This document shows positions 2-58,706 of a DNA stretch of 64,000 nucleotides, one piece after another (the first letter of the stretch is position 1; each line of letters starts with the position of its first letter). The stretch spans positions 2,854,001 to 2,918,000 of the forward strand of contig OX485809.1 of assembly GCA_950295325.1 (NCBI GenBank), written 5' to 3'. This DNA comes from Polytrichum commune. Lineage: Eukaryota; Streptophyta; Polytrichopsida; Polytrichales; Polytrichaceae. The notes beneath the pieces were generated by a model. It did not search any database, was not told where the DNA came from, and saw only the letters and a program-made list of their open reading frames with translations. The translations under genes and the position numbers were made by a program.

Positions 2-1417
2 ATAGAGCGTTTCAAAGCTCGATTAGTTGCCAAAGGATTCACCCAAACTCCTGGCATTGATTACACAGAAACTTTTGCTCCCACTGCGCGAGCTGAGAGC
101 ATTCGAATTCTTTTGTCCATTGCGGCTGCTGACGGTTTGTTTCTTGTTCAGTTTGATATTAAAACTGCTTACCTCAATTCCCCTATCCATGAACTCATTT
201 TCATGGATCTGCCGTTTGGTTTCGAAGAATTTTTTCACAAACATTTCCCTGAGAGTCGTGGAAAGGTGTGTCGAATTCTCAAAGGTCTTTACGGATTGAA
301 GCAATCTGCTCGCAGTTGGAATACTACCTTTTCTGCTTTCTTGAAAGCCTATGATCTTCTTCAAAGTACAGCTGATCCGTGTATTTTCTTCTCCACTACA
401 ACACTGCGTCTTATCATGGCTTTGTGGGTAGATGATGGCTTGGCGATGTGTCAGGATCAAGCTCTCTTGGCCAAGATGATTGCTCATCTTCAAACCGCAT
501 TTGAAATCACCGTTGGCGATGCGGATGTTTATGTGGGCTTACATATTACGAGGGATACCGCTGCTCGACGGATGTATATTGACCAACAAAGATTTACTGA
601 AACTATTCTTGTCAAGTATGGTTTTCAGGATGCACATACGGTGTCGACTCCTTGTGACCCTCATGTTCCCTTGAGCTATCCATCTGCACAAGATACCGAT
701 ACTCCTATTCCTCATTTTCCATATCAAGAAATTGTTGGATCCCTGCTCTGTTTGGCTACTCACTCGTGACCAGATATCGCTCATGTAGTTTCGGTTGTTG
801 TACAATATGCTAACAATTTTAGAGAAATTCATTGTACTGTTGTCAAAAGGATTTTAAAGTACTTACGTGATACTACTGATTTTGCTCTTTGTCACTCGCG
901 AGATCCCAACGAACATCACCTGCTTACTACTTTCACTGATGTTGACTATGCTAGTGATCTTAATGATCGAAAGAGTCGGAGTGGCAGTATCCTTTTTCTC
1001 AACAATGGACCTGTCATTTGGCTTAGTCGCAAGCAACCGTGTATGGCTTCCTCGACAACAGAGTCGGAATATGTTGCTGCTTCCCTCACAAGTAAAGAGA
1101 TTATGTGGGCGAGGCGTCTTCTTGCTGACCTTGGTTTTTCTCAACCTAAGCCTACTCCATTTTTTTCTGACAATCAGTCTGCTATACACCTTGTTCAAAA
1201 TCCCGAGTTCCACAAGCGGACAAAACACATCGATGTCTTGTTTCATCTTATTCGTGAATTCCAAGCTCGTGGTGACATTTCTATCTCCTATGTTCCTACT
1301 TGCCTTCAATTGGCAGATATTCTTACCAAGGCTCTGACTCCAGATACTTTCCACAAGTTGCGCTCTGCACTCAATCTTTCCAAGAAAGTCTTTCATCAAG
1401 TGGGAGAATTTGGCTAG
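2..1417 (+). mobile_element. Ty1/copia retrotransposon pol remnant (reverse transcriptase + RNase H), cut by window edge
   Basis: One reading frame runs from the window edge to the TAG at 1415-1417 and is interrupted only by a TGA at 767-769. The first part is a copia-type reverse transcriptase: [35 protein letters not shown], and a WVDD box (ALWVDDGL) in place of the usual YVDD. After the stop the same frame continues through PDIAH into RNase H (TFTDVDYASD, the ESEYVAAS block, DNQSAIHL, KHIDVLFH) and ends in the ILTKAL tail typical of copia polyproteins. Integrase, protease and gag would lie left of the window. The stop replaces an arginine codon usual before PDIA, consistent with CGA to TGA decay by cytosine deamination. 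This copy is inactive but not old, with one lesion in about 470 codons. Confidence 0.95.
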
Positions 1418-9787: not shown

Positions 9788-10499
9788 AGAGTTATTCATA
9801 AAGTTAAAGCATATGAAACCATGGGTTTAGTCACAAACCCTGAGTTTTTGAGAATTAACATAAAGTCAACCAAGTTTTCTTAATGTTTAAATTGTCATGC
9901 AAAAAGAGTTGGTGTGGGACTATTAAAAACCGGTTTTTTAGCTTGTCCTACTAGGATGGGTGGCGCAAGCTAACCTTGCATAGGTCAACATGGGATTAAG
10001 AAGAGTGAATCCCCATGCAAATACCCTATTTTAGATCTAAAATCCTCTCAAAATCTGAGGATGCAAAGAGGAAGTCCCGAAACCTACACCTAACTTTCAA
10101 GATAGGGTACGAACCACGACGCGCTAACGAACTCTTCGTAGAAAGTTTTCTTAAATAAGGATCAAATCCAAGGTTTCCGCGCTCTGAGAGACTTGGCGGA
10201 TCACTCTACTGCATAACCTCGTTTTGGCGGTGCATGCACGCTAATTCCATATTTGTAGCTAATGTGGTTGTTCCTGTCCTAGGAGTCGCGCCCTGATGTG
10301 ACGCCAGAATTCAACAACACCACGAGGTACACATGGAGCCGCTTGCAGAATCTGGAGATAATGGAGCAGGAGCTAGCATCTCGGTTTTCGTTTTGTTGAA
10401 ATCCTCACAGCAGGCTACTTCTGCTTGGGGGCTGACATCCAGCGACGGGAGGTTGAGTGGAATGAAAAGGTCAAACTGTGTGTGCGACAGAAATTGAAT
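9788..10499. other. Gene-free stretch left of the SMG7 pseudogene
   Basis: No recognisable coding content. Similarity to the SMG7 locus starts only at about 10500, so this side of the duplication breakpoint is unrelated sequence. An antisense open frame at 10311-10913 is a shadow of the pseudogene leader. Confidence 0.5.
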
Positions 10500-12424
10500 A
10501 AGTTTGATCAGGTGTGTCCAGCGATTGATTGAGTGATTGACGGGATGAATCGGACATGACAAGACCGGGCTAGGGTTTGTAGGTTTGGTTGGTGGAGGCG
10601 ACGGCAGGGGGAGTTGTGTATTTGTGTGTGAGAAGCCAAGCCAAGGGAAGCCGTTGAGGGAGAGTCGAGTTCGGAGGAAGAGGAGCGGAGCGGTAAATAA
10701 TAGGAAAGGCGTAGGGCCCAGGGTTGAGTTGAGTGGGATAGAAAAGGTGAAAGTTGGAGGTGAGGCGTGCGAGGAATGTATGAGCCTGTCGAGTGACTCC
10801 GGCTCCGTGTCTACCTCAAGCGCCCTGGCGAAAACATCGTTATAATCAGGTGATGACTTACCGCATCGCATCTCGGTGGAGTTTGGCACCGAATTTTGGT
10901 GTTCTCTGTGCATGGAAATGTCCAGGATTTACGGACTATTGAATTTTCCGTCTCTGCTGGGTACTACATTCAGGGAGCTTTGTTGTGGCCTTCGAGTGGC
11001 AATCCCCATAATCAGGTGAGTTTCTTTGCTTTCTGCATCAGTTGTCATTAGCAGGCCAGTTCAGAGTGGATGTTGTGTAGTTTTCTTTGGAGGTTAGTGC
11101 ATCTTTATTTCTATGGTCCCAAAGATTGGTGACTTATGAACATGAAATTTTCATGAAGGTTGATTACCTCTATCTCAAGAGACTTATTGTACTCGAAGCG
11201 ATTTCGTACCCTGTGCTTCAATTCTGTCTTGTCAATGTCAAGTTTTTCCCAGTGTGTCTGCCCTAGGTTATTACAAACTGGTTCTTAAGGCCCAGTGATA
11301 GGTGTTGTCTTACCAGCACCAATTTTTCTTGCATATTATAGTTATGAATGTAACGGAGGTCTTCCTGCTAGGTACTTGCTTTATTGTATTTAACTGGTCT
11401 TCAGATGACACTTGGCACTAAGGATTGGGTTTCTGGTTGCAGTTGGCAGTCTTGGCAACGTATATTAATGATGAACTATTTGCTGTCTATTGATATTTTC
11501 GAAGTCTTGCAGTGGAGACCCTCTTTCTTCCTGCTAGGGATCATCTAATACTTCTCTTTGAAAAGGTAAGCCCTTTGTTTTGAAGGTCACGATGTATATC
11601 AGATATTCATCATACTTCTGTTGCAATTTCGTGAACAAGAAACCTTCTCAATTGGATAGGCAATGAGTGATTTGGTTTCCGTCTATTGTACAAGAGGACC
11701 AAGGCTCGAGTAGCGCATCTATCATTGATGTTTTGAGCTGGTTTGTAGCCGCAATCACATGCGTACTCCACTATCATCGTACACCGCTTATGGTGTTTAG
11801 TGTCACTTACTATTTGAAGTTGTTCTGTAGTGCAATAACCAAGTGAAATATACGATTTTGTTCAATGTATATACTACTTATATGTACTTTATTTTTATGA
11901 ATTGAAATATGTGGTAGTAAAAGTATATATTTTTGGCGACCTCCAAATAGTAAGTGACATGAAACCCATAAACAGCGCAGTTTAGTAACTTGTTTTTACA
12001 GAGATTCGGTGCTGACAGTTTTTTGCAGCTTGAGTTTGTGAGTCCACTCCTAACATGGGTAGGATCAATATCACTGCAGAATCGAGTCAATTACAGCCAG
12101 CTGAACTCATTGAAGAGTGTTGTATCTTCTACTGGACCAAATACTGGAGTAGGATTAAAGTCCTCAGGAATCGGCATTGGTGGCAGAGGCGATCGAATGC
12201 ACTCTGTTGGGAATGGTGCTGTCAAGTTTGCAAAGAAGAAAGGAAAGTCAGAGAATAGTGATGTGAAGGGGAATGCAACAAGTGTTCTGAGCTGAGGAAA
12301 AGTTTTCACATTTGGTACTTTTTACCCAAATCAGGTACTGTACTTTCTGATCTTGATAGCTAGGTTTGATGGGACTTGTCTTAGAGTGTCTACAACAATC
12401 ACTGTAAAATTCTCTTAATAACGA
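10500..12424 (+). pseudogene. Truncated SMG7 pseudogene, inverted partial copy of the 22-29 kb locus
   Basis: Reading on the plus strand, it copies the SMG7 leader and first exon (10500-10849, ending ATAATCAG/GTGATG). A junction at about 10910 then leads straight into the end of exon 2 (10911-11015). The second intron, exon 3 (11443-11565, same 123-bp length), intron 3, exon 4 (12080-12334, 20 bp shorter than the original) and the start of intron 4 follow, and similarity stops near 12424. Lesions: an extra A in exon 1 (GCGAAAACATCG) giving a stop at its end; loss of about 1.6 kb including most of exon 2 and intron 1; TGA at 11491 replacing an Arg codon; and a one-base loss near 12288 causing a stop at 12292. 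Splice sites are still recognisable. It cannot encode SMG7, but transcripts would share long stretches with the real mRNA. Confidence 0.93.
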
Positions 12425-12611
12425 GGTTTGCTCCAGACTCCACACCAATTTTCTGCGTAGGTTTTACAAAGTATTTTTCTGGCAGGAAGTGCTGCATGTT
12501 CGGTGAAGGTTGAGCTGTAGAGTAAGTTTGGTATGCAAGGAGGCAAATGATTTGATCAAGAGGCAAAGGCTTGGCAAAAGGAACAGCAGAGGAATGCAAG
12601 CAAGAGAAGAA

Positions 12612-12895
12612 AGGCCAGGGGCTGTGTATGAGCTTGCTTGCTTGAGTGACTGAAAGTGGAGAAATTGGAGGATGGGAAGGAGTCGGATGCGTTAGGGCAG
12701 TTGAGCATGACCAGGGAGCTGTGTATGAGATTTGCACTTGTTCGGTTTGGTGCACAGGGGTAATGATGGAGGGTGGGAAGTGGCCCGATGTCTAGTGGGC
12801 TGAGAGTGGAGCTTTTGGGGAGTTGAGCATGAGATTACCAGTGAGCGATTGTTTTGGTGCAAAGGCAGGGATGGAGGATGGCAAGGAGTCCGACG
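12612..12895 (+). repeat. Three degenerate tandem units leading into the C78 protease start
   Basis: The units share CCAGGG(A)GCTGTGTATGAG, TTTTGGTGCA, GATGGAGG(A/G)TGG and AAG(G/T)xGTCxGATG. Unit 1 covers about 12612-12700, unit 2 about 12701-12822 and unit 3 about 12823-12895. TTGAGCATGA starts units 2 and 3. The protease start ATG at 12829 and its first 20 codons lie in unit 3, so this N-terminus was built from or copied into the upstream DNA. Confidence 0.65.
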
Positions 12896-14172
12896 ACACG
12901 AGCAATGGGTGTGGTGCAGTAGGCCAGTTCAACAAGATGGCGTTGCTGAACCTGAACTTGGAGGATTACACGAGGTCCTTGATGATTTCCCAGATTTGTG
13001 AGCCATCAGTGCATGTGGAGGAGGGGTTAATGCAGTTGCTGCAGGTTTGCTATGAGGAAGAGGACAAACAGACTTCCGCAATGGTGTTGTTGTCAGGATG
13101 CATTGAACACTTTGAAAGCAGGGTGATGGAAGATCTGGGCTGGGGCTGTGGGTGGCGCAACATCCAGATGTTGTGCTCTTACTTGCTGGTGCAAGATGCA
13201 GCGATGAAGGAGGCCTTGTTTGGTGGTGCGGGCTTCATCCCGAACATCTTTGCAATGCAACAGTGGCTAGAAATTGCGTGGGCTAAGGGGTTCGATGTTG
13301 CAGGTGCGGACTACTTTGACTGGAAGATTTCGGGAACTGAGAAGTGGATCGGAACCACTGAGTGTGCGGCGTTGCTGCGGTCGTTTGGGGTCCGTGCACG
13401 AATCATCGACTTCCAAGCTGTGGGCAAGGACAAAAAAGATGGGCTTCGGCCCAAGTGCGGATCACAGCCACAGGAAGCCGCCTCTTCTGACACCCCACTG
13501 GAACCGGGGGAACCGGATGTATTTGATGGAGACTTGCATGCCCAGGCCTCCACTTCTGCACATGGAGAACATGATGAGCATGGGAATGTTGAGCTCTGTA
13601 TTGCTCTTGTGGAGGAGCGTTCGTCACACAAGAGGTGTGAGCTTTGTCTCCGGTGCATGGAGGAGCGCAAACGCAAGGAAACCGCTGAGTTCGGAAGCTT
13701 CGTGGAGATCACCTCGGAGCAGCAGAAGCGGGAGGGCAGCAGCGGAGGTGGGGTTTCTGACCAGGACGAGGTGGACGTGAACCACAAGCATATGACCAAC
13801 TGGATATGGAACTACTTCTCGGACGACAAGGGGGATGCCACCATCGCTGTGCCGTCCATCAATCTGAGCAGCCGCTCACCTCTGTATTTCCAACACCAGG
13901 GCCATTCTCGCACCATTGTGGGAATTGAACGATTCCATGGAACTGGAGGTTTGCTTCAGGAGGACAAGCTTATCATCTTGGACCCATCACAGCAAACAAG
14001 TGACCTTGTGAGTTGTCTTCGGAAGAAACAGGGATGGCAGAACCTGATGGAGCGTGGGGTGCATACCTTGAAGCAAGCGGAGTATCAGCTGTGTTACATT
14101 GAGCCTGGGATCGCCGTTGGGGAAGAATTGGAGAGCTTGAAATTTCTTAGCACCATGCGGTACAAGTATTGA
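12829..14172 (+). CDS. Peptidase C78 (ZUFSP/UFSP-like) ubiquitin or Ufm1-type deconjugating cysteine protease
   Basis: This is an intronless, 447-residue frame. The C78 papain-like domain is complete. The catalytic Cys (residue 107, codon 13147) lies in EDLGWGCGWRNIQML, followed by FIPNIFAMQQWLEIAW, KGFDVAGADYF, WIGTTECAALLRSFGVRARI and NWIWNYFSD. The catalytic His is in YFQHQGHSRTIVGIE, the Asp in LIILDPSQQ, and a conserved end follows (RGVHTLKQAEYQLCYIEPGIA). This order matches the ZUFSP branch, which cleaves Lys63-linked ubiquitin chains in animals; the plant substrate is not known to me. A low-complexity insert at about residues 200-320 includes CELCLRC. The N-terminal C2H2 zinc finger usual in the plant orthologue is missing from this frame. 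It may be in an unseen 5' exon, or this may be a shortened or retro-copied gene. The TTG codon at 12823 is not a likely start. Confidence 0.9.
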   Translation: MRLPVSDCFGAKAGMEDGKESDDTSNGCGAVGQFNKMALLNLNLEDYTRSLMISQICEPSVHVEEGLMQLLQVCYEEEDKQTSAMVLLSGCIEHFESRVMEDLGWGCGWRNIQMLCSYLLVQDAAMKEALFGGAGFIPNIFAMQQWLEIAWAKGFDVAGADYFDWKISGTEKWIGTTECAALLRSFGVRARIIDFQAVGKDKKDGLRPKCGSQPQEAASSDTPLEPGEPDVFDGDLHAQASTSAHGEHDEHGNVELCIALVEERSSHKRCELCLRCMEERKRKETAEFGSFVEITSEQQKREGSSGGGVSDQDEVDVNHKHMTNWIWNYFSDDKGDATIAVPSINLSSRSPLYFQHQGHSRTIVGIERFHGTGGLLQEDKLIILDPSQQTSDLVSCLRKKQGWQNLMERGVHTLKQAEYQLCYIEPGIAVGEELESLKFLSTMRYKY

Positions 14173-14640
14173 GATTATGAACCAAGATGCTTATTACTAT
14201 TTGTCAAATTGGAGGTCTTCTCACCCCAAACATTCAAGGCTTGTTGACTCCACCCTACAACGTCGTTCAGATTATCTCTGTAAAGTTAAAGCCACTTCGA
14301 AATGACATCACAAGCTCGGGCTGTGGGCTGTGGGCTGTGGGCAAGCATGGAGTTGTTCTGCAACTCCCTCCACACATCTTACTGGGTAGGCTGGTTGCAA
14401 CCAGATGCTGCTGCATGATGGTCAGGACAAGATGATCAACTGTGAATCCATTCCTCTTGCATTTGATCAGCATACTGTACGGTACTCCTTGCTGAGTTCT
14501 TCTGCAACTCTCTGTACATATCTTCCTGGGCAGGTTGGTTGCAACCAGTTGCTTCATGATGATCAAGACAACCTGATCAGTTGTCTGTCTCTGTGAGCCC
14601 ATTTCCTCTTGTATTCGATCAGCAAACTCCACAGTTTAGC
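14173..14640 (+). repeat. C78 3' flank with GCTGTGG triplication and a ~145-bp tandem duplication
   Basis: GCTGTGG is repeated three times at about 14320-14343. Two units at about 14354-14480 and 14500-14631 then share CTGCAACTC, ACATCTT(A/C)CTGGG, AGG(C/T)TGGTTGCAACCAG, GATGATCAACTG/CTGATCAGTTG, CCTCTTG and GATCAGCA. No coding potential was seen. It is probably 3' untranslated or flanking sequence of the protease gene. Confidence 0.65.
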
Positions 14641-15344
14641 TTCAAAATGAACCTCAATGTCTCCAGCCCATGGCTATCTTGTGGTTGCATATTGATGGGC
14701 CGCGGAAATTCTGACGGGTTTCGTAACTGCTTGTCATCTTACAGCAGCGGCAAGGTGACACGAGACCTGCTCATTTTTCTGGATTACATGTCACATCTCT
14801 TGTTAGAAACTTTTGATAACAATTGATCTGCTGCCTACATTCTTCAGGTGCGATGCCCTAATATCGTCTTTATCCTTCATAGCAGTTTCTTGTGAACTTG
14901 GATTTCTAGAATTCTTAGTCAGTCTTCTCCAGTGCCAGGTCATTGATGCATTTCGTGCTCAATCATTGGGAGTTCTTAAATGTGTCCCCAGTATCTGGTT
15001 ATGTTCCTGCAATTTCCAAATCGTTGTGTCTTTCAGATGGCAAAGCTTTGGCTGTATGCAGTATCATGGAGGCTTTATGAAATACTGTCTATGTTATCTT
15101 TCCAATTTTGTCTATGATCCACAATCATAACTGGTCACCACTGGTTGATCTTTGCTTGTTCGTTTTGGGTGTTACTTCACCTGCGGTATAATCCTAGAGA
15201 TCTCCGGAAACTCCCATGTCTGGGCTGCTCTTCACGTGCAGCATTTTTTTATAGATTTGGGACAAAATAATGGAGGGTTAGTGGGGCTGGTCCCTTCTTA
15301 CCAGTAGGAGCTAGACCTTCTTGCACTGATTATGCAGACCTTTA

Positions 15345-15780
15345 TGTTGGTGGTCTACAGATAAATCCACTATCCTGCGTTTGTGGAGTTGACATTGTTC
15401 GAGATAACTATTGCAGAACGAGAATTCACTGCTATTAACGCCCACGCTCGAGCCTCAGCCTGATCTCACGACTGATGAGCAAGTTCCATTTCCTTGCACA
15501 ACTAATTGAGAGCTTCTCATTTGCAATTTATTTCTCTGAAGAAGAATGACCTGGCACTGATGGTGGTGGTCTACAGATAAATCCACCATTCCAATGGTTG
15601 TGGAGTTGAGCTCGTTAAAGATTGTCATTGCAAAACAAGAATCCATTGCTTTCAACACTGAGCTCAAGCCTCAGCCTGATCTCTCCACTGATCAGCAGGT
15701 TTACCTTCCTTGCTCAACCAATTGAGAGCTCTTCATTTGCGACTTCTCCTGTGCCAGGAAGAATGACCTGGGTACTGATG
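15345..15780 (+). repeat. Tandem duplication, two ~216-bp units
   Basis: The unit starting TGGTCTACAGATAAATCCA at 15351 recurs at 15567 (offset 216). The shared order is TTGTGGAGTTGA, ATTGCAxAACxAGAAT, GAGCTCAAGCCTCAGCCTGATCTC, ATCAGCA, ACTAATTGAGAGCT and GAAGAATGACCTGG. The segment after each unit also matches briefly. It is non-coding as far as can be seen. The stretch 14641-15344 between this and the previous repeat shows nothing recognisable. Confidence 0.75.
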
Positions 15781-16395
15781 GGTGTATTTTCTGCTTCAAT
15801 GTATAGTTGGCGTAGTCAAAAATCTGAGTTGGTATTCCTCAGTACCATGATATCAGTGACGGTCAGTGCAATCATACGATTGAAGATTGTTTGTACCTTG
15901 TGAGTAGCAAACTAGTGTGGCAATCTGTATGTCACTCACATCCCAGCAAGTGAACGACTTCCTTCAAATGGCAAAGGCTTTTAGAAGCAAAATTATCGGC
16001 AAATGATCACAGGTAACACCCACGACCCAAAAGAATTTGAGGTGCATCAGCAGGGAGTCCACTTATCTCATGGTTTGTCTCAAGACCATGGATCACTGGT
16101 AACCTCAAACATAATGGCATATGAGCTGTAGATCCTGGCAAGCATCTGATGGATCAACTCTGATCCCGGCCTTTATGCTGAATAATGTCCTCAGACCAGG
16201 GCAGTCTGAATATAATGGGCGCACCATTATTCGTGAAATGCCATGGTCCTTGGGCGTTATCTATCACTCTCAATCTTTGATACAAAAGGTTTTGGCCTTC
16301 TTCGAGTCATGCTGTGTGGCAGTGGTTGCACATCATGTGCATGGAGCAAAGTCCAAAAAAAATTACAAGGAAAGACAAGTAAAATTAGGATGGCA

Positions 16396-16570
16396 TTTCA
16401 TGTTGGTGACACTACACGAGTGGTTTACAATTAGTATAGAGCAAGACAAATGGAATTGGTGACACTAAATACATTTTTCAGTGTAGACATTTGGCGTGGG
16501 TTGGAAATTATGTGGGCTCTACAGAATTATTGTGCCCCACACTAATAGGACTAGTTGGTGGGGCTAGATA
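16396..16570. mobile_element. Adjacent remnants of two MITE families
   Basis: 16396-16490 matches the inner right end of the GTATTTAGTGTC family (GACACTACACGAGTGGTTTA, then GCAAGACAAAT, then GGTGACACTAAATAC). 16497-16570 matches the right end of the family at 2139-2485 (CCACACTAATAGGACTA). Both are truncated. 15781-16395 and 16571-17828 hold nothing recognisable. Confidence 0.55.
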
Positions 16571-17828
16571 TAATTATGCATCGTATTTGTCTCCAAAATT
16601 GTCCAATTTGTAATTCACATCCATGGGTGACGCATGTTGATATAGTGTGGGTCAAATTAGTTGTATACAAACAAACAATTTGATCCAAACCCCCATGACA
16701 TAAGTGATCTTATACAAGCACCTCAATCAATTACTTGGTACCTATATTGCCCTCAAAAACATGGTAATTATTCTTAGGAATGGAAACATATGTTTAGAAA
16801 TTGTTTCACAACATAACCATTTTTTAAGTACCATGTGTACCAATGATTTTTAATCCGACAATGCGCCAGTGAGTTGCAATTCTAAAAGTATAAAATAGAT
16901 TATTCAATGATTATTCGATGGATTTGTGTGGATGAAATAGCCATAATATCTCAACAACCTATAAAAATTGGATAAGATTGCCAACTTTTGGATGAATGTG
17001 TCTAAACTTGAGTGAAAATTGGTACAATCATCCATATGAGGTTGCATCACTCCAATCGTTGTAGCCAATGCTCCTGTCTTCCAAACTTGACATAAAGAAA
17101 CCATTGGTGTGTACTATGTACGACATTTTAGAGGTGCACACACAACCACTTGTTACAAGATTGTTGGGATCCCATTCTAAGTGGCCACACACACTTTGCC
17201 AAGTTCGGAAAATATCCCATGTGCATGGAGTGTACATGTGGCGCTTTAAATACACTCTAAACTCCATAATCTCAACCTCCTTAGTGGCACTCCTTCTCTT
17301 ATATCTTGAAACCGGAGGGAATAGATGTTCACAATTTGCATATCATTCCTTATTGTCACGTTTCCCTCCCATATGTCAAGGGTTTTGACATCAAAAGTAA
17401 CCACCACAAAATTCTTTCCCTTGCTCTCATTCGTCACATTCTCTTCATTGTAAGTATTTCAATACATTAATGTTGACATTGTTTTATTCCATAATGTCAC
17501 ATGCTACACTAATTCTCTTTTATCACGCATCCATGTTAACACTACAAAGCTCCTTAATATCATGTGCACTTTGGTTGCATAATGTCACAAGCATGATACG
17601 ACGGAGTTTAGAGTATGGTTGCACACTTTGACTTACAAGTGGAGATATCTTCGTAGACATTAAGCAACATTGTGCATATCTATGATGTGAAGAATGCGTT
17701 TTATATTGAATGCATGCTCATCTTGCCAGTGATTTAGGTTGTTTGTAGATGGCACCCATTGAATGGTGATTGAATAACATCACTCGCCTTATATTGCCAA
17801 TCATTTCAATTCTTAAGACATTTACTAA

Positions 17829-18166
17829 CTACACTAAGTATTGTATTTAGTGTCGCCAATTCTATTTGTCTTGCTCAATACTAATTATAAACCTAACAAT
17901 ATTTGTCATTCCTTGTGAAAGAATTGGACTTTATAGATTTACAATGTTGCAATTACTATCACTTGCTAAGTGATTTTTCATCCAAATTTCAATGCTTCAT
18001 GAGATAATACATTACACAAACATTGGGATGCTAAATATACCAAAAGTGGATGAACTAAAAGTAAATTGGGTTGACAATATTTGTAAACTTATTCATAAAA
18101 AGCGTCATTAGATAAGTTAGCACATTGAAATAAAATACCATACAACACTAAATACAATATTTAGTC
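17829..18166. mobile_element. MITE, GTATTTAGTGTC family, copy 1
   Basis: It starts CTACACTAAGTATTGTATTT and ends AACACTAAATACAATATTTA, a terminal inverted repeat. Shared internal blocks are CAATTCTATTTGTCTTGCTC, AATACTAATTATAAAC, CATTCCTTGTxAA, TTTTTCATCCAAATTTCAAT and a GGATGAACTAAAAGTAA stretch. Other copies are at 33582-33973, 54700-55086 and 57648-58014. The CACTAC-type end suggests a CACTA-related MITE. Confidence 0.75.
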
Positions 18167-21100
18167 TTAAACTTTGATATTTTTGTAGTTCAAACACATT
18201 GCATCAACCTTCAAACATCAACAAATTTGGTACCTTAATACATGTTTGTCATGCACATGACCTAGGTTCGTTTACATCAGTTTGGGAGGTTTGGAGTACA
18301 GTCTTTGCAACATGTAAGTGTACTAGAGGAGAAATGAGGTCAAGGAGTGCTCTTGAGTTCTTATTAAAACATGACATCATTTCATCTTATATGTTCATCT
18401 CAATTATGACATGAATGACCTTTTAGGAAGGACGGGTGAAGTTAGACCGAGAATGGATCACTATGATATGAAAGGAAGTGTAAGTTGAGGTGCAATAGGA
18501 CCTAGAAAGGGCCATTGTGGGTTTCCAACAAGTGTAAAGGACCATGGGAAGATATTTGTATTTCCCATGCGGACTCCACGTATTTGGGATGCAATTTGAA
18601 GACTCGTTATACTTTCACAATGGCACCTAGGGTGCCATGTAGGAAGGTAACGGCATGTTCACACTAAAGGCATCAGGCCATGGCTCTTGAATAACAATGC
18701 TACCCCGCTTTTTGGATGAGACCACAAAGAAGTCCATGGATTATAGTCCAGGGTTATGGAAGTCACAAGCCTTTAGTGTAAATTGATGTGGGATCATTAA
18801 AAAGATCTCACAATAATTTTAATTAGATATAAGAATGCATCATGAAGGAGAGAGAAAACAAAGTGTTCATAACTTTTTTATGTATTTGTGTTTGTGTATG
18901 TTTATTTAGCAACTTTTGAGCATTCAAGAAAAGTCACCTTTGTTTAGGCACTATGAAGGGGTTAAACCTTCCATACTTTTGACTTTGATGTTTTTTATGA
19001 GTGGATCATATGAAGTGTGTTCTTTTTGGGGTTTTTTTTTTTTTTTTTTGGGGGGGGGTAAATAACTTTTTGGTGTATATGTCAAGATAGAATGTAAATT
19101 ACATTAATTGTATTTTTTTGTTTTGGTTACATGTCGGGTGATTGTTGGAGAGTTATTAGTATTCCATGTATGTAATATTCAGTTGTAGCCTAGCTAGGCA
19201 ATGTGCATCTCATGTTGTTGCTTGTGCAATTTAGTAACCATGTTGGTATTGTATTGCCCAAGGAGTAGTTGTGAGCCTATGTGTTTTAGGTATAGGACAT
19301 GGTTTGGGCACATGCGTTTTGGAGGTTTGCTATTGAGTGTGTAATGCCTTGCAATTCTTAGCCCTTAAAAGTTGCTTGTTACTTTGATTGGATATGAGAT
19401 GGGGCCAATTGTCTCATTTGTTATCGCAATAAACCACTTTGGATTGCAAAGAAACCTTGACTTTCCTAAACTCAATTGCTTTTTCCTCCTTGTGGGTTTG
19501 CTAATAGTTTGTATTCACCCCCACCCCCCCCCCCCCCCCCCCCCCCCACTCGTCATGGGGATTCTTTAGTGTTAAAAAATAGAAAGGTGCATATAACATT
19601 ACTCATCAACGGGCTCTTGCTCCGCGGGGCCAAGACATTTTCAGTCAAAATTTCCCTTTTTATTTATGGGCCTCCCTTACAATTTGCCCAATGTTAGATA
19701 GCTATCCCAAACTTAGCCTTGTAATCTTCAGAAAATTGTGAATAAGTTGTGCCAGCATGTCCCCCGCGACCCATGTTGCATTTGGCACCTACTAGGCAAG
19801 TCAGCATTATAAAACATTTAAACATTCAAACATTATAAAACATCAAACCATTATAAAACAAATGGTCAGTCCATAGATTTCGTAAAGTTTGATGGATCTC
19901 ATTGTATTGATTGGTGTTCATACTCCTTGTAGCAAGGGAACTAGCCTATAGGTTGAGTAATGTTATGCAAGTCGCATTGAGGGAGAATGATGCTCCGAAG
20001 TTCTGCTGAAGCTTGTAGGTGGTCATTAAGACTTGGAGGAGGAAGCAAATTTTCTTGGTCATGGGACATGGCATTGCCCATTGCAAGGATCAACAAAAGT
20101 AGTGTGGGCAACATCACAAATCTTATGTAATTTAATATTGGCATTCAAGCTCATTGTGAGAGACACTCATCATCTAGTAAATGAATTGTGACCATCTCTA
20201 GAATGTGCATATATATACAAATTCTCCATCCCATCATCCAACTCAAGAACTTCAACTTTACGACCCTTAGATCTTCTCAAAATTTGTTGACATTCGTGAT
20301 AGGGATTTTTTCCCAAATCTTCATGATAGAGTTGGTTTCCACACAAAAGTGGCCAATTATGATATATGTTGATGATGGTAGGCTGAATTATCCTCGACAT
20401 CAAGGGCAGAATGGAAGTTCCAAGTTCCTTGGAGTGTACCCGGTGGCAATAAAGGGTTATGGGTCTCAAGTGCCAAGATACTTCGCTTCACAGGCATTTC
20501 GCTTCATACCCATGTAATTGTGTCCTAATATCCCACATTCTGTGCTACTATCCATTGCAATCCAGCCTCCAAAGAAAATAACTCAAACTTGCTAGAGCTT
20601 GCAACCCAACTAGCAAGTTCCACTCATGTCTCAAGTGCAACCACGTTTAGAGATCAATCCACTTTACTTGAGAATGATCCTTTTCTCTAAAGTTGTATGG
20701 ATCTTAATCCTGCAATTCAGTTCATTCACGTCTATTAAGACCTACTTTGCAGGAGAGTTCATTCAACAACAGAGCCCAGCCTCACTTTCAACCTAACTCA
20801 CTTAGACAAGCTTTGCATTTCACAAGTACCCTTTTTCCAGGACACAGTTTAAACCTAGATCTAACTTTGGAGGTGGATCCAGTGGAGAACTATACTCTCA
20901 ACACACTACATCCCTGAGCCCGCTCATGCCCAGACATGCTTCTAAGAAACAGATTCGAATATTGATGCTTGCTCCTTAAATTCAAGTGATAAAGTGTTGA
21001 ATGTAAGACCTTTAACTCGATTGCAAAGATGGAAAGCAGTGCAGCTTACTCCGCACAAAACCGCACAATTGCAGTCTGACAAAGTCCCATGCACCAAAAC

Positions 21101-22100
21101 ATAGTTAACAAAAAAACATTTATTACTTGGGAGAATGCCACATGGAAACCAAGTTGCACCTCTACTGTAGGACAAAAAAAGATAGTACTTAAGTTATGAG
21201 CAGCTTCATAGTATTGCATGCTCTGAACGATGAAATTACGAAAAATGATGGTTCTTTCCACAAGTGAAGAAGACCGTTTAGTATTTAAAGTCTAAAGCCT
21301 TGTTTGGAAGGTAGTCTTCTCAATTGAGCTGACTTGCAACCAACAATTGCTAGGACAAGAACTGGTCTTGAGGAGGGCTTTTGAAAGAGGCATGCCAAAC
21401 ACCAGACTCCTTCCATCTGTGCCCCAACAACCAGTTGCTCCTGGAATCATCCCACATGTAAAGATCAGAACTGTACAACTCCATCCACATGCATTTTAGG
21501 AGCACCTTACTTGTGCATTCTTGATGAGAATGTGAGAATAATGGCTACATGTTCTCGCATTGACAAAATGGACGTAAATTGGTGGTAAGTGCCACTCAAT
21601 CGCTTAACATCAACTATCTACAATGCTTCACAATGATGATGCATCGCAAGGTGCAACAATATGGAGATGAGAAATAGTTGGCAGTGCATTTTTTTTTAAC
21701 ACTAAACTTATTAAGACACTAAACTTCCCCTGCATACTATAGAAAACCTGATGTGCGATAGGGACAAACAGCACAGAACACTCATGCTTACTTGGTTGAA
21801 GACCATTTTAAGGTGTCAGAAACCACTGCCGTACATCTTCCATGAAAAACGATCAAGAGAACATGGATGCAGCTATCCACTCGCTCCACCCAAAATATGT
21901 TCTTTAGTGCTGTAGGCAAACGGATTGAGGTATGATGTGACTCTCAAGAGACATATTTTCAATACCAAAGATGACTATATCGCACATGTCTGCACTCTAC
22001 AGCTTCTGCGGTGAGTTCTCTCCATGTGATCTGCAACAGTGATATTCATAAGTCTTCCCTGGTCTGCATAAGTAGATGGTGCAATAGATGTGCTTGCGTC
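18167..22100. other. Gene-free stretch with homopolymer tracts
   Basis: No supported coding region. A T-run followed by a G-run lies at about 19031-19059, and a 24-base C run at 19524-19547. The latter yields spurious poly-proline open frames and could form quadruplex or i-motif structures. The right end (about 21960-22100) may be SMG7 3' untranslated sequence. Confidence 0.5.
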
Positions 22101-22129
22101 CCAAGCTTCGACAGTGATGGTACCTGCCA

Positions 22130-22291
22130 TATGATTCCAGCATATAGTGATCAGATGATCCTCTCCAGAAATACAAGATTCTGATGACCTACATCTTCCC
22201 GACATCATCATTTCGCCATTTCAGAACACCAAGCTGAACATATAAGATGAAGTATGTAAATGGAGCTTACCGGATCTGAAGAGTCACTTTC
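22130..22291 (-). promoter_or_regulatory. Possible intron in the SMG7 3' untranslated region
   Basis: On the minus strand the SMG7 stop codon (22292-22294) is followed 21 nt later by a strong donor, GATCCG/GTAAGCTCC (last exon base 22271). Acceptor-like sites follow: GTCATCAG near 22165 and ATATGGCAG near 22127. The second overlaps a further possible donor (CAG/GTACC). Plant SMG7 genes are known to carry 3' UTR introns that make the mRNA a target of its own pathway. The first junction here is too close to the stop to trigger decay by the usual 50-nt rule, so a second intron would be needed. Confidence 0.35.
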
Positions 22292-25200
22292 TCATGAGAC
22301 GAATGGATCACAAGAGTGAAACTGTCCTGCCCACTGCTGCTGCTGCTGTTGCTGCTGGCGATCAAGTAACAGCAACTGCTGGTGTTGCTGGTGTTGCTGA
22401 TGAAGTTGATGCAATTCAGCCTGGGCCCTTCCTTGAGACTGAGCATGAGCTTTGTCAATAAGCCTTTGCCTCTCTGCACTGTAGACTTGCTGATTCTCAT
22501 TATAAGGAGGCTGAAATTGAGGTGCGCTGGTGTTGATCTTCCTATGAGGGGCTCCCATACCTTTGAAGGCAAGCACATGTTGTAAGCATAAAAAGAGCTA
22601 CAAAGCTTAAATCAAGGAGTCAGAAGTCAGCTCATGGAAGCTGATAGTAAACACAAATACAATCAGTACAGATATTTACCTGGAAATGGAAATGGTGAAC
22701 TTTCAAACCCTGAGCTTCGAATATTGCCATCTCCAGTCGACCACATATTACGGTTATTTGAATACGAAAAGAAATCTCTTTCTCCAGGATATCCAGACTG
22801 GGAGGTAACCGGCTTAGGTGTTCTGAAGTCATCTAACCAGCCATAGTCATCAACTTGATCATCTCCCTCGGTATGACGCTGGCTTGGCAAATGTGCAGTG
22901 GGTGGCTGGATAATTCCCTGTGAGTTTACAGCTGATGGTCTTCCAGTAGATTTTCCTGGAAGAGGTCCAAAGCCAGGGGGGGGGCGCATTGCAGGTTGGC
23001 TTCCTCTGTTTGGAAAGGAACTCTCTTTTCCACTCCAGCTGCTAGTCATTGCAGTTGCTGAATCTCGGTTGCTTGATGTGGGGTATTTTCCCAATTCTGG
23101 ACTTGCAGACAACTCTGATGCACTCAATGGAGGTAGAGAATTGGACACCAGTGGACCCTCACCACCAAGGGGGTTATGTGATGAAAGTCCGCTACTGTAC
23201 ATATTAGGCTCCAACTGTGAACTCCAAAGTGATGTGTGCACATCACCCTGGTTTGAGAGCCCAAGGACTTGACTTGTGGACAATGTCTTGTCAGGACCAT
23301 TCACAAATATACTCCTCTGACCCTGCATCCAGGATTCCAAATTGGAAGATGCATAGCGTGGTGCAGGACCACTTTGTTGTTCCAGCCAGTCCCCTGCTCT
23401 TGTTACAGGTGAAGTCATGATGGGTAACTCATGCGACCCTGCTACAGACAGCTCCTTGAAAAGAGGGTTCAGCCCAGGTAAAGACATGGTTGTCAGAGGG
23501 TTTGAAGTCTCTGGTATTGGGGCTACTATTGGTGAAGACACATGTACAGAACTGCTCATTAAAGGAAGAGGAATGGCAAGTTCGGCAGGACCAGGTTTTG
23601 AAGCTGCTATCAATGTGCTGGAATCCAGAAGATAACTGCTTCCCCCCGAAGTTTTTTGAACAGACCCTTGACTTATCTGGTTGTAAGTCCGAAAGTTTGA
23701 AGCAACAGAAACTGAAGGGACCTGTCCCGAAACTTCTGACACCCAAGGACTTTCAATACTCGTGTTCAAAGAAGTGATCCCGGGTGCAAAAACATCAGGT
23801 GTAGCCAGAGCAGGAAAATTAAAAGATGGTGCAGGTGCAAGATTGTCAGAGAATGAAGGCTCGGGAGGTAGTAAAGGAGGACCTTGCCTTTCTCTAACCA
23901 TGGGCTTAAACACAATCACTTCCTCATCCTCCTCTTCCTCATGAGTTACTTTTACACGAGGTGTAGCAGGCTTCTCCACAATAGAAGTGCCCAGCGGCCA
24001 AGAGCTTTTGCTGGATAATGGTGTGCTCTGAACTGAAACCCCTTCCTCTTCCTCCTCATCACTCTCTTCCTCTGCCTTGACAATGTCATCCTCCAATTCA
24101 GCAACCAAAACCTTTTCTTCATTGTTCTCCACCTTCCCCTCCCCAGCCAGATAGAATTTCTCCTCTTCCTCATCAAAGCAAATACCTCGTTTTGAGCTTT
24201 CCAAGGCATTTGCTACTGCTTTTCCAGCTGCCAGTAGCCTCTGAACACGCACTTTCAAATCTTTGTCCCCCATCCCCTCACTAGAACCCCCTCTTGAATA
24301 GTCAAGTGAACCCCCTCTTGTGTAGTCCAGAGCCATCTGAGCCGGAGCCAGAGGAATAAACCCTTGAAGCTCGAAGTCTTCCGAAAGTGCAACGCCTCGG
24401 TCATTGTCACCCATACCAAGGCCACCAGAAGAAACCATCTCAAGTTCACTGTTAAGGTCTCCCTGCTCTTTATGAATCCTTATGAAGCTGTTAAGAAGGG
24501 TGAGACACTCTGCCCAGAAAAAAGATCTAGCAATGCCTTGTTTCTTATCGATCTCACTTCCTACAGCCATCTCTGGACGGCCAGCTAGCCACTCCATCAA
24601 TAGTAGTAATGCAGGGAGAAGAGAGCTGCGAATTGGCTCTTTGGAGTCACTGCAGCGTCGCATCAGGTAAGCACCAAACTCAAAGGCTGCAGTTAGGGCA
24701 TGTCCACAAAGATCTGACCTCTGTAGGATCTCTGCATATGTAGGGTGGTGATTTGTTGCATCTGGGCTCCAGTTTATATTATGAACAGTAAAAATAAGAA
24801 TAGCTACAAGTTGAAGAACATTAGTTGGGCCAGTACTGCCCATAGATTTTGCACTTCGATGATCAACTCCCAAGCTAGCCTCCAGCATAGAATCATCTGC
24901 AGCAAGGAGCTGTTTAAGCTCACTCACTGTTTCTGAATAAACCTCTGGGAAAGTCTCTAAACTGCAAACAGTGAAAACAAGTAACACATTATTCCTTGAT
25001 ATATCATGGGACTGGCCCCAAGGGAAGTCAATTGCAAGAAGGTGTGCAGTACTTTGTTGTAAGAAGCATGACCACCGATCACTGTGAAATAATTCTCTCA
25101 AAGATCGGCCTTCACAGTTTCTTGGGCCAATGTTCCGTGCTCATCCCACCCATAAGTCCATACTTATCATGAATCTTCACTAGCCACCAATTATTAAGAG

Positions 25201-28200
25201 AGGCAACCCTCTAAAGTCCTTGATCACTCAATTGGAGGGTGGAAAGAATTTAGAGCACAACCTCTCCCAACAACTGGTAGGCAATTAGATTTTGAAGAAT
25301 ATTCGGATTTTATGGGTAGGATGAGCATGCTGCTGTGCTCCCCAGCAAACTAGGATGCCAGTTATTGAGAGAATTTTACAGTGATTGTTGTAGACGCTCT
25401 AAGACAAGTCCCATCAAACCTAGCTATCAAGATCAGAAAGTACTGTACCTGGTTCGGGTAAAAAGTATCCCATTCATCCGGACAAACCGAATGTGAAAAC
25501 TTTTCCTCAGCTCAGAAACACTTGTCGCATTCCCCTTCACATCACTATTCTCTGACTTTCCTTCCTTCTTTGCAAACTTGACAGCACCATTCCCAACAGG
25601 GTGCATTCGATCGCCTCTACCACCATTACCGTTTCCTGAGGACTTTAATCCTACTCCAGTATTTGGCCCAGTAGAAGATACAACACTCTTCAATGAGTTC
25701 AGCTGGCTGTAATTGACTCGATTCTGCAGTAATATTAATCACTACCCATATTAGGAGTGGACTCACAAAATCAAGCTGGAAAAAACACTGTCAGCACCGC
25801 ATCTCTGTAAAAATAAGCTACTAAACTACACTGTTTATCACTGTTTATGGGTTTCATGTCACTTACTATTTGAAAGTCACCAAAAATATATACATTTACT
25901 ACCACATATTTCAATTCTTACGGATAAAGTACATTCAAGTAGTAGATTCTACACTCAATAGTGAACACAGTTTGAAGGACCTATGTATTCAGTTAAGGAA
26001 TCAACAAACGTGTATTTCCAATAACCATAATATCTTAAATTAGTACACTTCACTTGTACAAACCAGCTCAAAACATCACTAATAGATGCGCCACTCGAGC
26101 CTTGTTCCTCTTGTACAATAGACGGAAACCAAATCACTCATTGCCTATCCTTTTGAGAAGGCTTCTTGTTCACAAAATTGCAACAGAAGTATGATGAAAA
26201 TCAGATATGCATCATGACTTTTAAAAACAAAGGGCTCACCTTTTCAAAGAGAAGGATCAGATTATCCCTAGCGGTAAGAAAGGGGGTCTCCACTGCAAGA
26301 CTTCGAAAATATCGATAGACAGCAAGTAGTTCATCATTAATATAAGTTGCCAAGACTGCCAACTGCAACCAGAAACCCAATCCTTAGTGTAAGTGTCATC
26401 TGGACACCAGTTAGATACAATAAAGCAAGTACCTAGCAGGAAGGCCTCCGTTCCATTCATAACTATAATATGCAAGAAAAATTGGTGCTGGTAAGACAAC
26501 ACCTATCACTGGGCCTTAAGAACCAGTTTATAATAAACTAGGGCAAACACACTGGGAAAAACTTGACATTGGCAAGACAGAATTGAAGCACAGGGTTTGA
26601 AACTGTTTCAAGTAGAGTCTCTTGAGATAGAGGTAATCAACCTTTCATGAAAATTCCATGTTCATAAGTCACCAATCCTTGGGACTTTAGAAATGAAGAT
26701 GTACTAACCTCCAAAGAAAACTACACAACATCCACTCTGAACTGGCCTACTAATGACAACTGATGCAGAAAGCAATAAAACTCACCTGATTATGAGGATT
26801 GCCACTTGAAGGCCACAACAAAGCTGCCTGAATGTAGTACCCAGCAGAGACGGAAAATTCAATATTCCGTGAATCCTGGACATTTCCATGCACCTCCTTG
26901 TAACGTGCCAGGTCACCCAAGAAAATTAGGCAGCGATGGCATGAAAGCTGGCAACGTTTCACTTCAGACCACCGGTTTTTCTCATTCGCACCTGTACCAG
27001 GAGCCTCTATGCCCCTAAAGGCAAAAATATCCTGAGGAATTCCATGCTTGGCTCTCAATTTCACAATAAGGTCATGGTAAAAAGCAGTGGCTTCAGCCAG
27101 AAAACTTTTGAATGCGGCAAGAACTTTATGGATAGACTCTCTTGGAGGTGGAGCCTTGGACCCTGGTACAGGGGGGGCTGCAGCAGAAAGATTAATTTTC
27201 TTGATTCTGGCCCGGAACTCATCAATCTGTTTGTAGTGCAGCCGCCAAATTGCTTGCTCAACTTCATGTTGTTCAGCAAGTTCATGATCTTCAAGAATCA
27301 CTGCCTCATATTTCTCACGAACAGAATTTTGCAAAGCTCGTACGTTAGAATCAAATGGCCCCTTCACCTGAAGCAATGTGCGCAGCTGCTTCTCTAGATC
27401 CAGGGCCTGCATATGTAAGTGACTGGTTAAGACAGAGGAAATTTCTCAAGCTAGGTAGAAAATGCCACCAAGTAATACTGTTGATATTTGGTCACAAAAA
27501 GCACCATACATTGTTACATTTGTCAATGAAAACTGCAACACAACTGGTTGTCACAGAAATATATACTTTAAACCTCCTGTAACTTGAAACAAGCACAAAC
27601 AAGCACAAAAAATTAAAAGAACTACTGATCAAATCTCTCAACGTGAGAGACGTTCAACTATTGATCTCAAGTCCTGCTCCACAGGAACAATATACAGCCA
27701 GAGGGATTCAGTCCAGATTGCTGTAGAGTCTAGAGCAATCCTCGTAGAATAAAGGTAACCCGACCACACAAGTCGAGAGAAGAAACTGAATCACTTGCAT
27801 TGCGAGGAGTTAGTATGACGCACACAGAAATAGGTATGAGGAACAATCCAGGATATTCCACACAAGGTAGAAACAGAACACCTACAACACATAACAAGGA
27901 TTTCAAAAGTAGCAATGTCAACTGCTCCTATGCATTCCTAAATTCATCATAACAATTAAATTTTGTGTTCAAACAACCAAGCACCAAGAAGTAAGGCAAA
28001 GGCTCTTCTGAATGTACGTCTCATCCGTGACTCACACAAGTTCGATTCACGTTTAAAATGATGAAAATTAACAGAAACTACTAGTCAAATGAGAAGTCAA
28101 TTCTGATAGGCCTTTCTCATAGACTGAAATCATAACCATGACCTAAATTGGCTCAACGGAGAGCGCAATATAGAATAATCGAAGAGATTCGGTTGACACA

Positions 28201-28623
28201 TTCCGTGTTCCTCCTTTCCCAAATAATTCCAAAGAAACAAATGGCTCTATCCTGATTCAAGACATCGTACACCACCATCAACTGCATCACGTGTAGGTAT
28301 CTTCACACCACCGAAAACTGACAAACCGTTGATGGAAAATTTGCCTTTCACGTTTATTATGCAACCGAAAAAACTGATCGGCCGCACATGGCATGTGACA
28401 ACACAGAAACACACCCCACCGCATCACAACACCACAACAACACCACACCACACCACACCACACCACACCACACCACACCACACAAAACAACACAGAGAAC
28501 ACCAAAATTCGGTGCCAAACTCCACCGAGATGAGATGCAGTAAGTCATCACCTGATTATAACGATGTTTCGCCAGGGCGCTTGAGGTAGACACGGAGGCG
28601 GAGTCACTCGACAGGCTCATCAT
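22292..28623 (-). CDS. SMG7: SMG7, nonsense-mediated mRNA decay factor (EST1/14-3-3-like)
   Basis: SMG7 binds phosphorylated UPF1 through a 14-3-3-like fold and directs the mRNA to decay. In plants it is also needed for meiotic exit. Inferred coding exons are 28623-28552, 27406-26786, 26362-26240, 25723-25449, 24961-22680 and 22560-22292, all with GT-AG borders. Phases join exactly, giving 1213 residues. Exon 1 encodes a short Ser-rich start ending KHRYNQ, joined to ALDLEKQLR. The EST1/14-3-3-like and TPR region is residues 50-530 (NYEA-like EKYEAVILEDHELAEQHEVE, SCHRCLIFLGDLARYK, AALLWPSSGNPHNQLA, YRYFRSLA, NGILFTRTSLETF). Acidic stretches precede EEVIVFKP. Conserved C-terminal motifs are PPPGFGPLPG (about 1024), DDYGWLDDF (about 1068) and FPFPG (1121), then a Gln-rich tail. 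If exon 1 is wrong, the ATG at 27412 gives 1191 residues. Confidence 0.95.
28441..28484. repeat. (CACCA)n microsatellite in SMG7 intron 1
   Basis: About eight 5-bp CACCA units, plus degenerate flanks, lie about 70 bp inside the first intron. The pseudogene copy lost exactly this stretch. Its deletion junction falls at the edge of the repeat, suggesting the repeat took part in the break. Confidence 0.9.
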
Positions 28624-28890
28624 CCATTCCTCGCACGCCTCACCTCCACCTTTCACCTTTTCTATCTCACTCACCTCAACCCTGGGCCCTACGCCTTCCT
28701 CTATTATTCCCCGCTCCTCTTCCCTCCAAACTCGAGTCTCCCTCAACGGCTTCCCCTTGGCTTGGGCTTCTCACACACAGATACACAATCCCCCCTGCCG
28801 TCGCCTCCACCAGCCAAACCTACAAACCCTAGCCCGACCCTGTCCTGTACGATTCACCCCGGCAATCAATCAATCACACCAATCAATCAA
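28624..28890 (-). promoter_or_regulatory. SMG7 5' leader or core promoter with telo-box
   Basis: The minus strand carries CTAGGGTTTGTAG (telo-box AAACCCTA, plus strand about 28819), a motif common near plant transcription starts and in leaders of translation-related genes. GA-rich sequence (GGGAAGAGGAGCGGGG) follows, leading to the ATGATG start at 28623. No clear TATA box was seen. The same sequence is conserved in the pseudogene (10540-10775). Confidence 0.45.
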
Positions 28891-29076
28891 TCACTTGCTG
28901 GACACGCACACCGAGATGCAGAGCATGCTAAAGAGCGGCAGCAGGAAGAAGACGGCCGAGAAGACGTCGCCGGGGCTGACGGGCCGGTTGTGGCGGTGGC
29001 ACGCGAAGAACAGGTAGGCGGCGATGGCGCAAGCGGAGGCCACGAGGAGCGCGGAAACGAAAATTAGGCAGGGCAT
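28891..29076 (-). CDS. Small two-helix membrane protein, 61 residues, just upstream of SMG7
   Basis: The frame begins MPCLIFVSALLVASACAIAA and has two hydrophobic helices (residues about 3-22 and 38-58) separated by a short basic loop (CHRHNRPVSPGD). It ends CVSSK followed by TGA. Codons use G or C at nearly all third positions, in contrast to the A/T-rich surroundings and to SMG7, which argues for real coding. I do not recognise the family. It lies 267 bp upstream of the SMG7 start on the same strand, so it is either a separate small gene or an upstream ORF in a longer SMG7 transcript. A pyrimidine-rich stretch precedes it, as in plant core promoters. The SMG7 pseudogene begins within its last codons. 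Confidence 0.6.
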   Translation of the reverse strand: MPCLIFVSALLVASACAIAAYLFFACHRHNRPVSPGDVFSAVFFLLPLFSMLCISVCVSSK

Positions 29077-53810: not shown

Positions 53811-54086
53811 AAAACCACTTCTTGGAGGTAGGTCTAACACAAAACCGGGAAACCATGGCACTAGGAATGTTCACATCCGTTGATTTATTCTATTTTATCA
53901 TGTGTGAGGACTGGCATGAATAGAGGCTCGTTGAAATAATATTTACTTGAGGGTCTGGTCACATGTGTCTTCACACGACATTTGAGGATCCGTGACCACA
54001 CTACATGGTTTCGGAGGTATGTTGGGACGGCCTTTGGACTCTCACAATTTCACGGTCACAACTCTTGGCTCGTGTGTGAAGTGGCC
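53811..54086. mobile_element. Tourist-like MITE family, copy 1 (left-truncated)
   Basis: It is collinear with 56015-56280 and, inverted, with 58123-58400: AGGTAGG(T/C)CTAACACAAAAC, ACCATGGCAC, TTTTATCATGTGTGAGGAC, GTCCGTGACCACACTACATG, and GTGTGTGAAGTGGCC at the end. Confidence 0.7.
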
Positions 54087-54699
54087 TTGATGCCCGGTTC
54101 ACACGGGTCCCAAGTCCTATGTCCAAAGTCACTTGAGGTTATTTGTGCAATCCTAGCCATTGGAGCATGGAAGTTGAGACTTTTCACTTCACACATGGTT
54201 CCAAATCTGTAAGCCCTAGGTATGACTACATGGCAACAACATTTGGCTACATGGCTTGGGACTTATGTTGAGAGTTGGGTCAAGCAAAAAGCTAGATCAA
54301 ATTCTCAATACAAGTCCCGCAAATATTTTTGCATAAAATAATCAAGATCCGCCTTTCATGATCATTAACCGTATTTGGTTGGGTTCTTGAGGCTCAAAAG
54401 TTGGGACTGTGACTTCATGTTGGGATTTGCTAACATGAGTGGGACTTGGGACCCCATGTGACCCCGCCCTAAGTTACAAAGGCTACACTAATAGAACATT
54501 GCTAAGCAACTAGACGATGCTCTCTTTGCAAAGAGAGAGGCTGCAAACTAAAGGACTTTGGATTCATAATTGCATGTTGAAAAGCTCATAGTACACATCT
54601 TGAGTGCTCCTCGTAAGCGGGGATTCCCATAATTAAAGTAAACTTATGCTTGCTCGATACATGGTCCACGGAACGTAGCCAAGGACCTAGTAATGTTAT

Positions 54700-55086: not shown

Positions 55087-55800
55087 GACCAAGTTCCTTT
55101 CCCCCACACAAGGTAGATGTCCCTACTTCTAACACAACGATGATATGCACACCTATATTTTAATGATATGCGGTTAGATGTGGATCTAAGAGTGGAGCCC
55201 CAAACAACATGTTTTTAAAAGAAATTACACCATATGCTCAAAGCACGATGACCATTCGAGGCTAAATCATCAACATGATTGGGGGGGGAGAGGGACATGT
55301 ATGACCACAAGAATTTTCACTTTGATATTGATTGAGATAGAAGTGGTGACACTAAATGTTCTATTCATGTTTTGGATTTGCTAATCATCTAATGCTACTT
55401 GCCAACTTCATGTCATATGAAAAGTGGGTGCAAATAGAATAACATCCAAATAACACATGTCTATCTTAGCTTGCAAAATGGTGGTCATTGTGGAGTATAA
55501 TAACTATCAGGTCGGCCCAATGACACTCCACGTGCTTGTTGAGTTGTCCTATAAAACAAACGGTGACAAACGTGGGTTACACTCAACATCAATATTTGAG
55601 TTAACGGTTTAACACTTTTAATTAGAAATTCACATTTTAATATTATTGATTTCCTTTTTCTGACACCTTGAGGTCCATAACGGGCCTTGCGAACCTATAT
55701 GGGTTTGCTGTAAAGAAAATGAAGAATTTGTGGGAATTGAAGGTGGATTTTCCCATTTCAAGTGTGACCATAGAATCTTGGAGGGCTTCCTTGAGTTTAA

Positions 55801-56281
55801 GGGCCACTTCACACATGAGACTGAGAACCCGTGACCAATACACTTCAAGCACTCTCATTGGTGGAAAAGACGGAGCCCAGTCCAAGTTCGCTTCACACTA
55901 CGCTTGAGGGACCAATGCAGTATGTGAATGGAAGATGGATGTAAAGTCTACATGGATTCCTACATGGCATCAAATGGATCATGTTTCATAGTCACTTGGA
56001 TTATTTTCAAAAACCACCTCTTCGAGGTAGGCCTAACACAAAACCAGGAGACCATGGCACTCCAAATGCTCACAACTGTTGGTTTATTTGATTTTATCAT
56101 GTGTGAGGACCCACATGAGTAGAAATTCATTGAAGTAGCATTTGGTTGAGGGCCCGGTCACATAGGACTTCACACTACACTTGAGGGTCCGTGACCACAC
56201 TACATGATTTTGGAGGTTTCTTGGGATGGCCTTTGCACGCTTTCTTTCGGGGCTCTCACAATTTCATGGTCATCTGGGTTG
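55801..56281. mobile_element. Tourist-like MITE family, copy 2
   Basis: The left terminus GGGCCACTTCACACATGAGA is preceded by TAA (55798-55800). The body matches 58123-58625 inverted. The right terminus is diverged after TCACAATTTCATGGTCA. It forms a 2-kb-spaced inverted pair with the third copy. Confidence 0.75.
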
Positions 56282-58625: not shown

Positions 58626-58706
58626 TAAGACCTTGCAAGACTTGGAGACTATAAACAATATAGTCTATCCAAAGTGCGATGCAAAATCAGAGGAAGGTAG
58701 TGCTAC

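Follow-up and report, generated by a model that had tools for sequence, protein, structure and literature searches.

In this study, a window of 64,000 nucleotides of the Polytrichum commune genome (C7:2854001-2918000; assembly of 407.8 Mb in 64 contigs) was analysed. It contains an SMG7 gene on the minus strand and a partial, intron-containing duplicate of this gene on the plus strand (window 10514-12422), both in contig C7. The parent gene and an open reading frame (ORF) downstream of the copy were placed as follows:

22292..28623, minus strand: SMG7, six coding exons, modelled by eye from reading frames and splice consensus, without a transcript
12829..14172, plus strand: Peptidase_C78 ORF, counted from 12829, the position of its first in-frame ATG; translation may begin elsewhere

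The exons of SMG7 were located at 28623-28552, 27406-26786, 26362-26240, 25723-25449, 24961-22680 and 22560-22292, giving a model of 1213 codons before the stop that appears complete. The domains EST1 (PF10374, E 2.1e-20) and EST1_DNA_bind (PF10373, E 1.9e-14) were detected in exon 2 and exon 5, respectively, and exon 2 is a sequence relative of the solved structures of EST1A (E 2.6e-07) and SMG-7 (E 6e-05). We take the gene to be SMG7 on the basis of these domains and its likeness to plant SMG7, and its role in NMD is putative. A diverged EST1/SMG7-like locus at C1:44664500-44672500 is 27-64% identical to SMG7, depending on the segment.

The leader of SMG7 carries a GC-rich ORF of 61 codons (28891..29076, minus strand) that by eye predicts a small hydrophobic peptide. 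This ORF could be translated as an upstream ORF; it gave one match in the assembly, namely itself, and no Pfam family at the cut-off. A donor-like CGGTAAG lies approximately 21 nt past the SMG7 stop codon (window 22292-22260, minus strand), a candidate site that recalls the stop-proximal 3'UTR intron described for Arabidopsis and rice SMG7 (PMC3711448).

Several repeated sequences were also observed in the window. A second inverted pair is formed by 55800-56272 and 58152-58626 (87% identity over 477 nt, approximately 1.9 kb apart), with a further relative at 53811-54092, and a palindrome at 60640-60972 has 165-nt arms that are 88% complementary with 3 nt between them. The ORFs at 113-769 and 1043-1417 (plus strand), read by eye, are presumably pieces of a Copia-type retrotransposon polyprotein.

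Structure of the copy

Two matching blocks on opposite strands were found by BLASTN: 10526-10910 against 28876-28491 (91% identity, 526 bits) and 10908-12422 against 26893-25361 (87% identity, 1890 bits). After shuffling in two-base blocks, the top match among 20 controls was 28.3 bits. The same two blocks, at 91% and 87%, make up the alignment of 10500-12424 with the reverse complement of 25361-28930 that the earlier note had proposed, and its description of an inverted partial SMG7 copy approximately 13 kb from the intact gene, with the pseudogene on the plus strand and SMG7 on the minus strand, was borne out. MAFFT alignment pushes the left end of the copy to about 10514. The distance between the matched segments is 12.9 kb (from 12422 to 25361), and 9.9 kb separate the copy from the end of the SMG7 stop codon (22292). 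The parts of the copy are as follows:

10514..10910, plus strand: first block, comprising the end of the SMG7 5' leader, exon 1 and the first 61 nt of intron 1; matches 28910-28491
10908..11015, plus strand: exon 2 remnant of 108 nt, donor GTGAGT retained
11443..11565, plus strand: exon 3, donor and acceptor retained, with a stop (CGA to TGA) at 11491
11748..11868, plus strand: stretch of intron 3 with no useful SMG7 alignment (57% mismatch; BLASTN and MAFFT)
12080..12334, plus strand: exon 4, acceptor and donor retained, with two deletions inside
12335..12422, plus strand: first 88 nt of intron 4, the right limit of homology; matches 25448-25361

In SMG7, the second aligned part (26893-25361) therefore covers the final 108 nt of exon 2 and everything up to the 88th nucleotide of intron 4. 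Intron 2 aligns between the two loci, as do parts of introns 1, 3 and 4. The copy starts at the extreme end of the 61-codon leader ORF, with the ORF itself excluded, and includes neither the sequence upstream of this point nor exons 5-6 and the 3'UTR. Immediately to the left, window 10300-10514 (plus strand) is exon-like and frame-broken, and its end, a donor-like CAG/GTGTGT, directly adjoins the copy. Searches of Pfam and PDB with this segment gave no convincing relative (a Pua-like family below the cut-off at E 0.026, and two PDB chains at E 1.3 and 3.5).

Disabling lesions and splice sites

The earlier note had counted three independent lesions in the copy, which is too few; five disabling lesions were identified:

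about 10831, plus strand: extra A (+1 frameshift) in exon 1; the frame 10780..10845 ends at TAA 10843-10845 after 21 codons
10908..10911, plus strand: 1,600 bp present in SMG7 are deleted, with the join falling on 3 shared bases, GTG (BLASTN coordinates)
11491, plus strand: CGA to TGA in exon 3
about 12284, plus strand: loss of 1 nt in exon 4
about 12315, plus strand: loss of 19 nt in exon 4

The 1,600-bp deletion took out the remainder of intron 1 along with 513 nt of exon 2 and its acceptor. Two gaps, one of 3 bases at the start of exon 1 and one of 17 bases in the leader, were not scored as lesions because the ATG is kept at 10780. The splice sites had been described as intact, and this holds for six of the seven sites expected for exons 1-4, namely the four donors (GTGATG, GTGAGT, GTAAGC and GTACTG) and the acceptors of exons 3 and 4, each of which is preceded by CAG, and fails for the acceptor of exon 2, which is deleted. 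When exons 1, 3 and 4 of the copy were joined in a mock splice, stops were present in all three frames. Two marks of a duplicated pseudogene were found: homology to a parent, introns included, and destroyed coding capacity.

Divergence between the copy and SMG7

The copy and SMG7 differ by 122 substitutions in 1781 compared columns, in addition to indels; the divergence figures omit 107 aligned intron 3 columns (SMG7 26056-25948; p 0.57) in which there is no useful alignment, and the three GTG columns of the deletion join enter them twice, once per block. K2P divergence was 0.073 in introns (67 of 964 sites differ) and 0.050 in exons (27 of 556), with no significant difference between the two (P 0.13). 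Among nine regions, divergence was lowest in exon 1 (0.029) and highest in the leader (0.116); this unevenness had a P of 0.023 with the gap-rich leader included and 0.11 without it. The value for exon 3 (0.077) is level with those of the introns.

Synonymous divergence (Ks 0.081, 10 of 131 sites) is close to intron divergence, and with Ka 0.039 (16 of 418 sites) the Ka/Ks ratio is about 0.49, calculated from only 26 coding changes, with gapped codons omitted. This ratio fits the near half rate that would be expected if the copy alone could change freely beside a constrained parent. At the eight replaced residues that it covers, the diverged relative at C1:44666044 agrees by eye with SMG7 at four, with the copy at one and with neither at three, which indicates that most of the informative changes fell on the branch of the copy. 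Gene conversion between the loci was considered and rejected, the identical runs being of a length expected by chance in 5000 shuffles (longest run 76, P 0.42; sum of squared run lengths, P 0.15). As judged by divergence and Ka/Ks with small counts, no clear mark of constraint is visible in the evolution of the copy.

A probable dead duplicate in inverted orientation

The copy is most probably an ordinary dead, inverted, partial duplicated pseudogene that does nothing for SMG7, and we give this reading a probability of about 87%. The verdict is carried by the lesions and not by the substitution rates. On the other side are the survival of six of the seven splice sites, which a divergence of 7% permits and does not require, the uneven divergence among the nine regions, and an exon-intron difference short of significance, with exon 3 diverged as much as the introns.

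The retention of introns and splice sites indicates that copying took place at the DNA level, and a processed (retroposed) pseudogene is ruled out by the introns. The proposed course of events starts with a partial duplication of SMG7, which took in approximately 3.5 kb of the parent between the end of the leader and the first part of intron 4. The duplicate may have arisen by template switching or break repair and would have been set down inverted 13 kb away; the direction of copying was presumably from the intact-looking gene to the fragment. Lacking exons 5-6, the 3'UTR and the upstream region, the duplicate would have been dead on arrival or soon after. The 1.6-kb internal deletion, the three frame-disrupting indels, the stop codon and the base changes would then represent later decay.

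The earlier note regarded a broken relative full of stop codons near SMG7 as an unusual arrangement; however, duplicated pseudogenes riddled with stops occur commonly in plants. A survey of rice reports 11,956 non-transposon pseudogenes and finds a pseudogene paralogue for approximately 12% of the protein-coding genes (PMC2708354). The present copy resembles the duplicated pseudogenes of that survey in being intron-containing, truncated, frameshifted and stop-bearing with an intact-looking parent, and differs in lying close by and inverted. SMG7 proteins are said to have expanded independently in evolution (PMC6232500), so extra copies of SMG7 are not surprising in themselves. Among the titles retrieved on SMG7 pseudogenes, bryophytes and duplication, none concerned an SMG7 pseudogene of this kind.

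Possible effects of the copy on SMG7

The earlier note had further suggested that any read-through or opposite-strand transcript of the copy could pair with SMG7 mRNA, and this stands for a minus-strand transcript only. The copy reads on the plus strand and SMG7 on the minus strand, and a plus-strand transcript of the copy is therefore SMG7-sense and cannot pair with the SMG7 mRNA. Minus-strand RNA against SMG7 exons 1-4 might be processed into nat-siRNAs or hairpin siRNAs and in this way lower SMG7 expression, an account that we regard as very improbable. The orientation allows such pairing, and perfectly shared windows are present: 147 of the 3639 possible 21-nt windows and 108 of the 3636 possible 24-nt windows, counted on a 3,659-nt partial SMG7 mRNA that consists of exons 1-5 and 287 nt of leader, without exon 6 and the 3'UTR.

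Two sources of minus-strand RNA are imaginable, namely read-through from SMG7 extending at least 9.9 kb past its stop codon, and divergent transcription from Peptidase_C78. The Peptidase_C78 ORF can open approximately 0.4 kb beyond the right end of the copy, and a promoter beside the copy is presumed. Read-through, in contrast, must cross approximately 10 kb and one oppositely oriented ORF.

Precedents for such silencing exist in rice and soybean. According to the rice survey, small RNAs from pseudogenes might act on the sense RNAs of their parents in 38 cases (PMC2708354), and the soybean study describes siRNAs from an aquaporin inverted repeat and a CHS inverted-repeat cluster (PMC3534067). 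The present locus shares with these soybean loci an inverted paralogous sequence from which double-stranded RNA is possible in principle. However, its arms lie approximately 13 kb apart, compared with approximately 1 kb in the soybean aquaporin repeat (PMC3534067); at least one other ORF lies between them, and they are 87-91% identical.

Further points against an antisense role are that the copy is under no clear constraint and that it bears no mark of long-standing heavy methylation. C-to-T and G-to-A changes in the copy show no clear excess over the reverse (42 vs 36, with CpG losses accounting for 7 of the 42), which is a weak point. The feedback on SMG7 in Arabidopsis is, moreover, explained by its 3'UTR (PMC3711448), of which both the length and the introns trigger NMD in reporters and whose structure shows strong conservation among angiosperms; this 3' region is absent from the copy. 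Two further reports describe the Arabidopsis SMG7 mRNA as a direct NMD target (PMC3284524) and place SMG7-2 among the NMD targets of the moss Physcomitrella (PMC6009662).

A plus-strand product of the copy was also considered. Such an SMG7-like RNA would be non-coding and rich in premature stops; it would itself be subject to NMD and might act as a decoy for regulators of SMG7, which we think very improbable. In its favour, exons 1-4 of the copy retain six of their seven splice sites, but the copy starts at the end of the leader ORF with the upstream region of the parent uncopied, and it also lacks the 3' end of the parent. More doubtful again is a second RNA brake on SMG7, in which a backward divergent transcript of Peptidase_C78 would yield siRNAs from the dead copy and act alongside the 3'UTR tuning of NMD. 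Nothing in the sequence calls for a regulatory reading, which is possible and weakly supported.

Flanking sequences, repeats and the origin of the copy

When the copy was searched against the assembly, at least 50 matches were obtained, of which three represent the copy itself and SMG7 (in two pieces) and 47 cover only query positions 1236-1314, a short repeat in intron 3. No further close copy was present among the matches listed, for which 40 of 80 candidates in the assembly were scored. The intron 3 repeat (copy 11761-11839) is dispersed in both orientations elsewhere in the assembly, and part of it has a reverse match in SMG7 intron 3; over about 110 nt of this intron, the sequences of the two loci are different. 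Intron 3 of SMG7 carries a piece of another high-copy repeat (at least 40 matches including itself, with 40 of 2792 first-look candidates scored).

Dispersed short repeats in intron 3 of both loci, together with a fragment that includes introns and breaks off inside intron 4, could suggest that a transposable element (Helitron or Pack-MULE-like) captured part of SMG7. This origin is highly doubtful, as the flanks of the copy (10200-10525 and 12423-12900) match only themselves in the assembly, with very common words skipped, and within approximately 50 bases around each end direct matches reach at most 5 bp and inverted matches at most 6 bp; the lack of a further close copy among the matches listed points the same way. 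Helitrons are not known to have target duplications or inverted end repeats, and such an element, like one with short target duplications, could have escaped this comparison. An assembly error is unlikely, and the copy is almost certainly no artefact or collapsed haplotype, given its 122 substitutions plus indels and two flanks without a second match.

Implications

As a probable dead duplicate, the copy has a practical consequence for the annotation of this moss: gene finders and RNA-seq mapping should not read the region at 10.5-12.4 kb as a functional SMG7 paralogue. If minus-strand RNA does exist at this locus, it would offer a clean test case for the control of SMG7 dosage, and of the NMD machinery, by a nearby inverted pseudogene.
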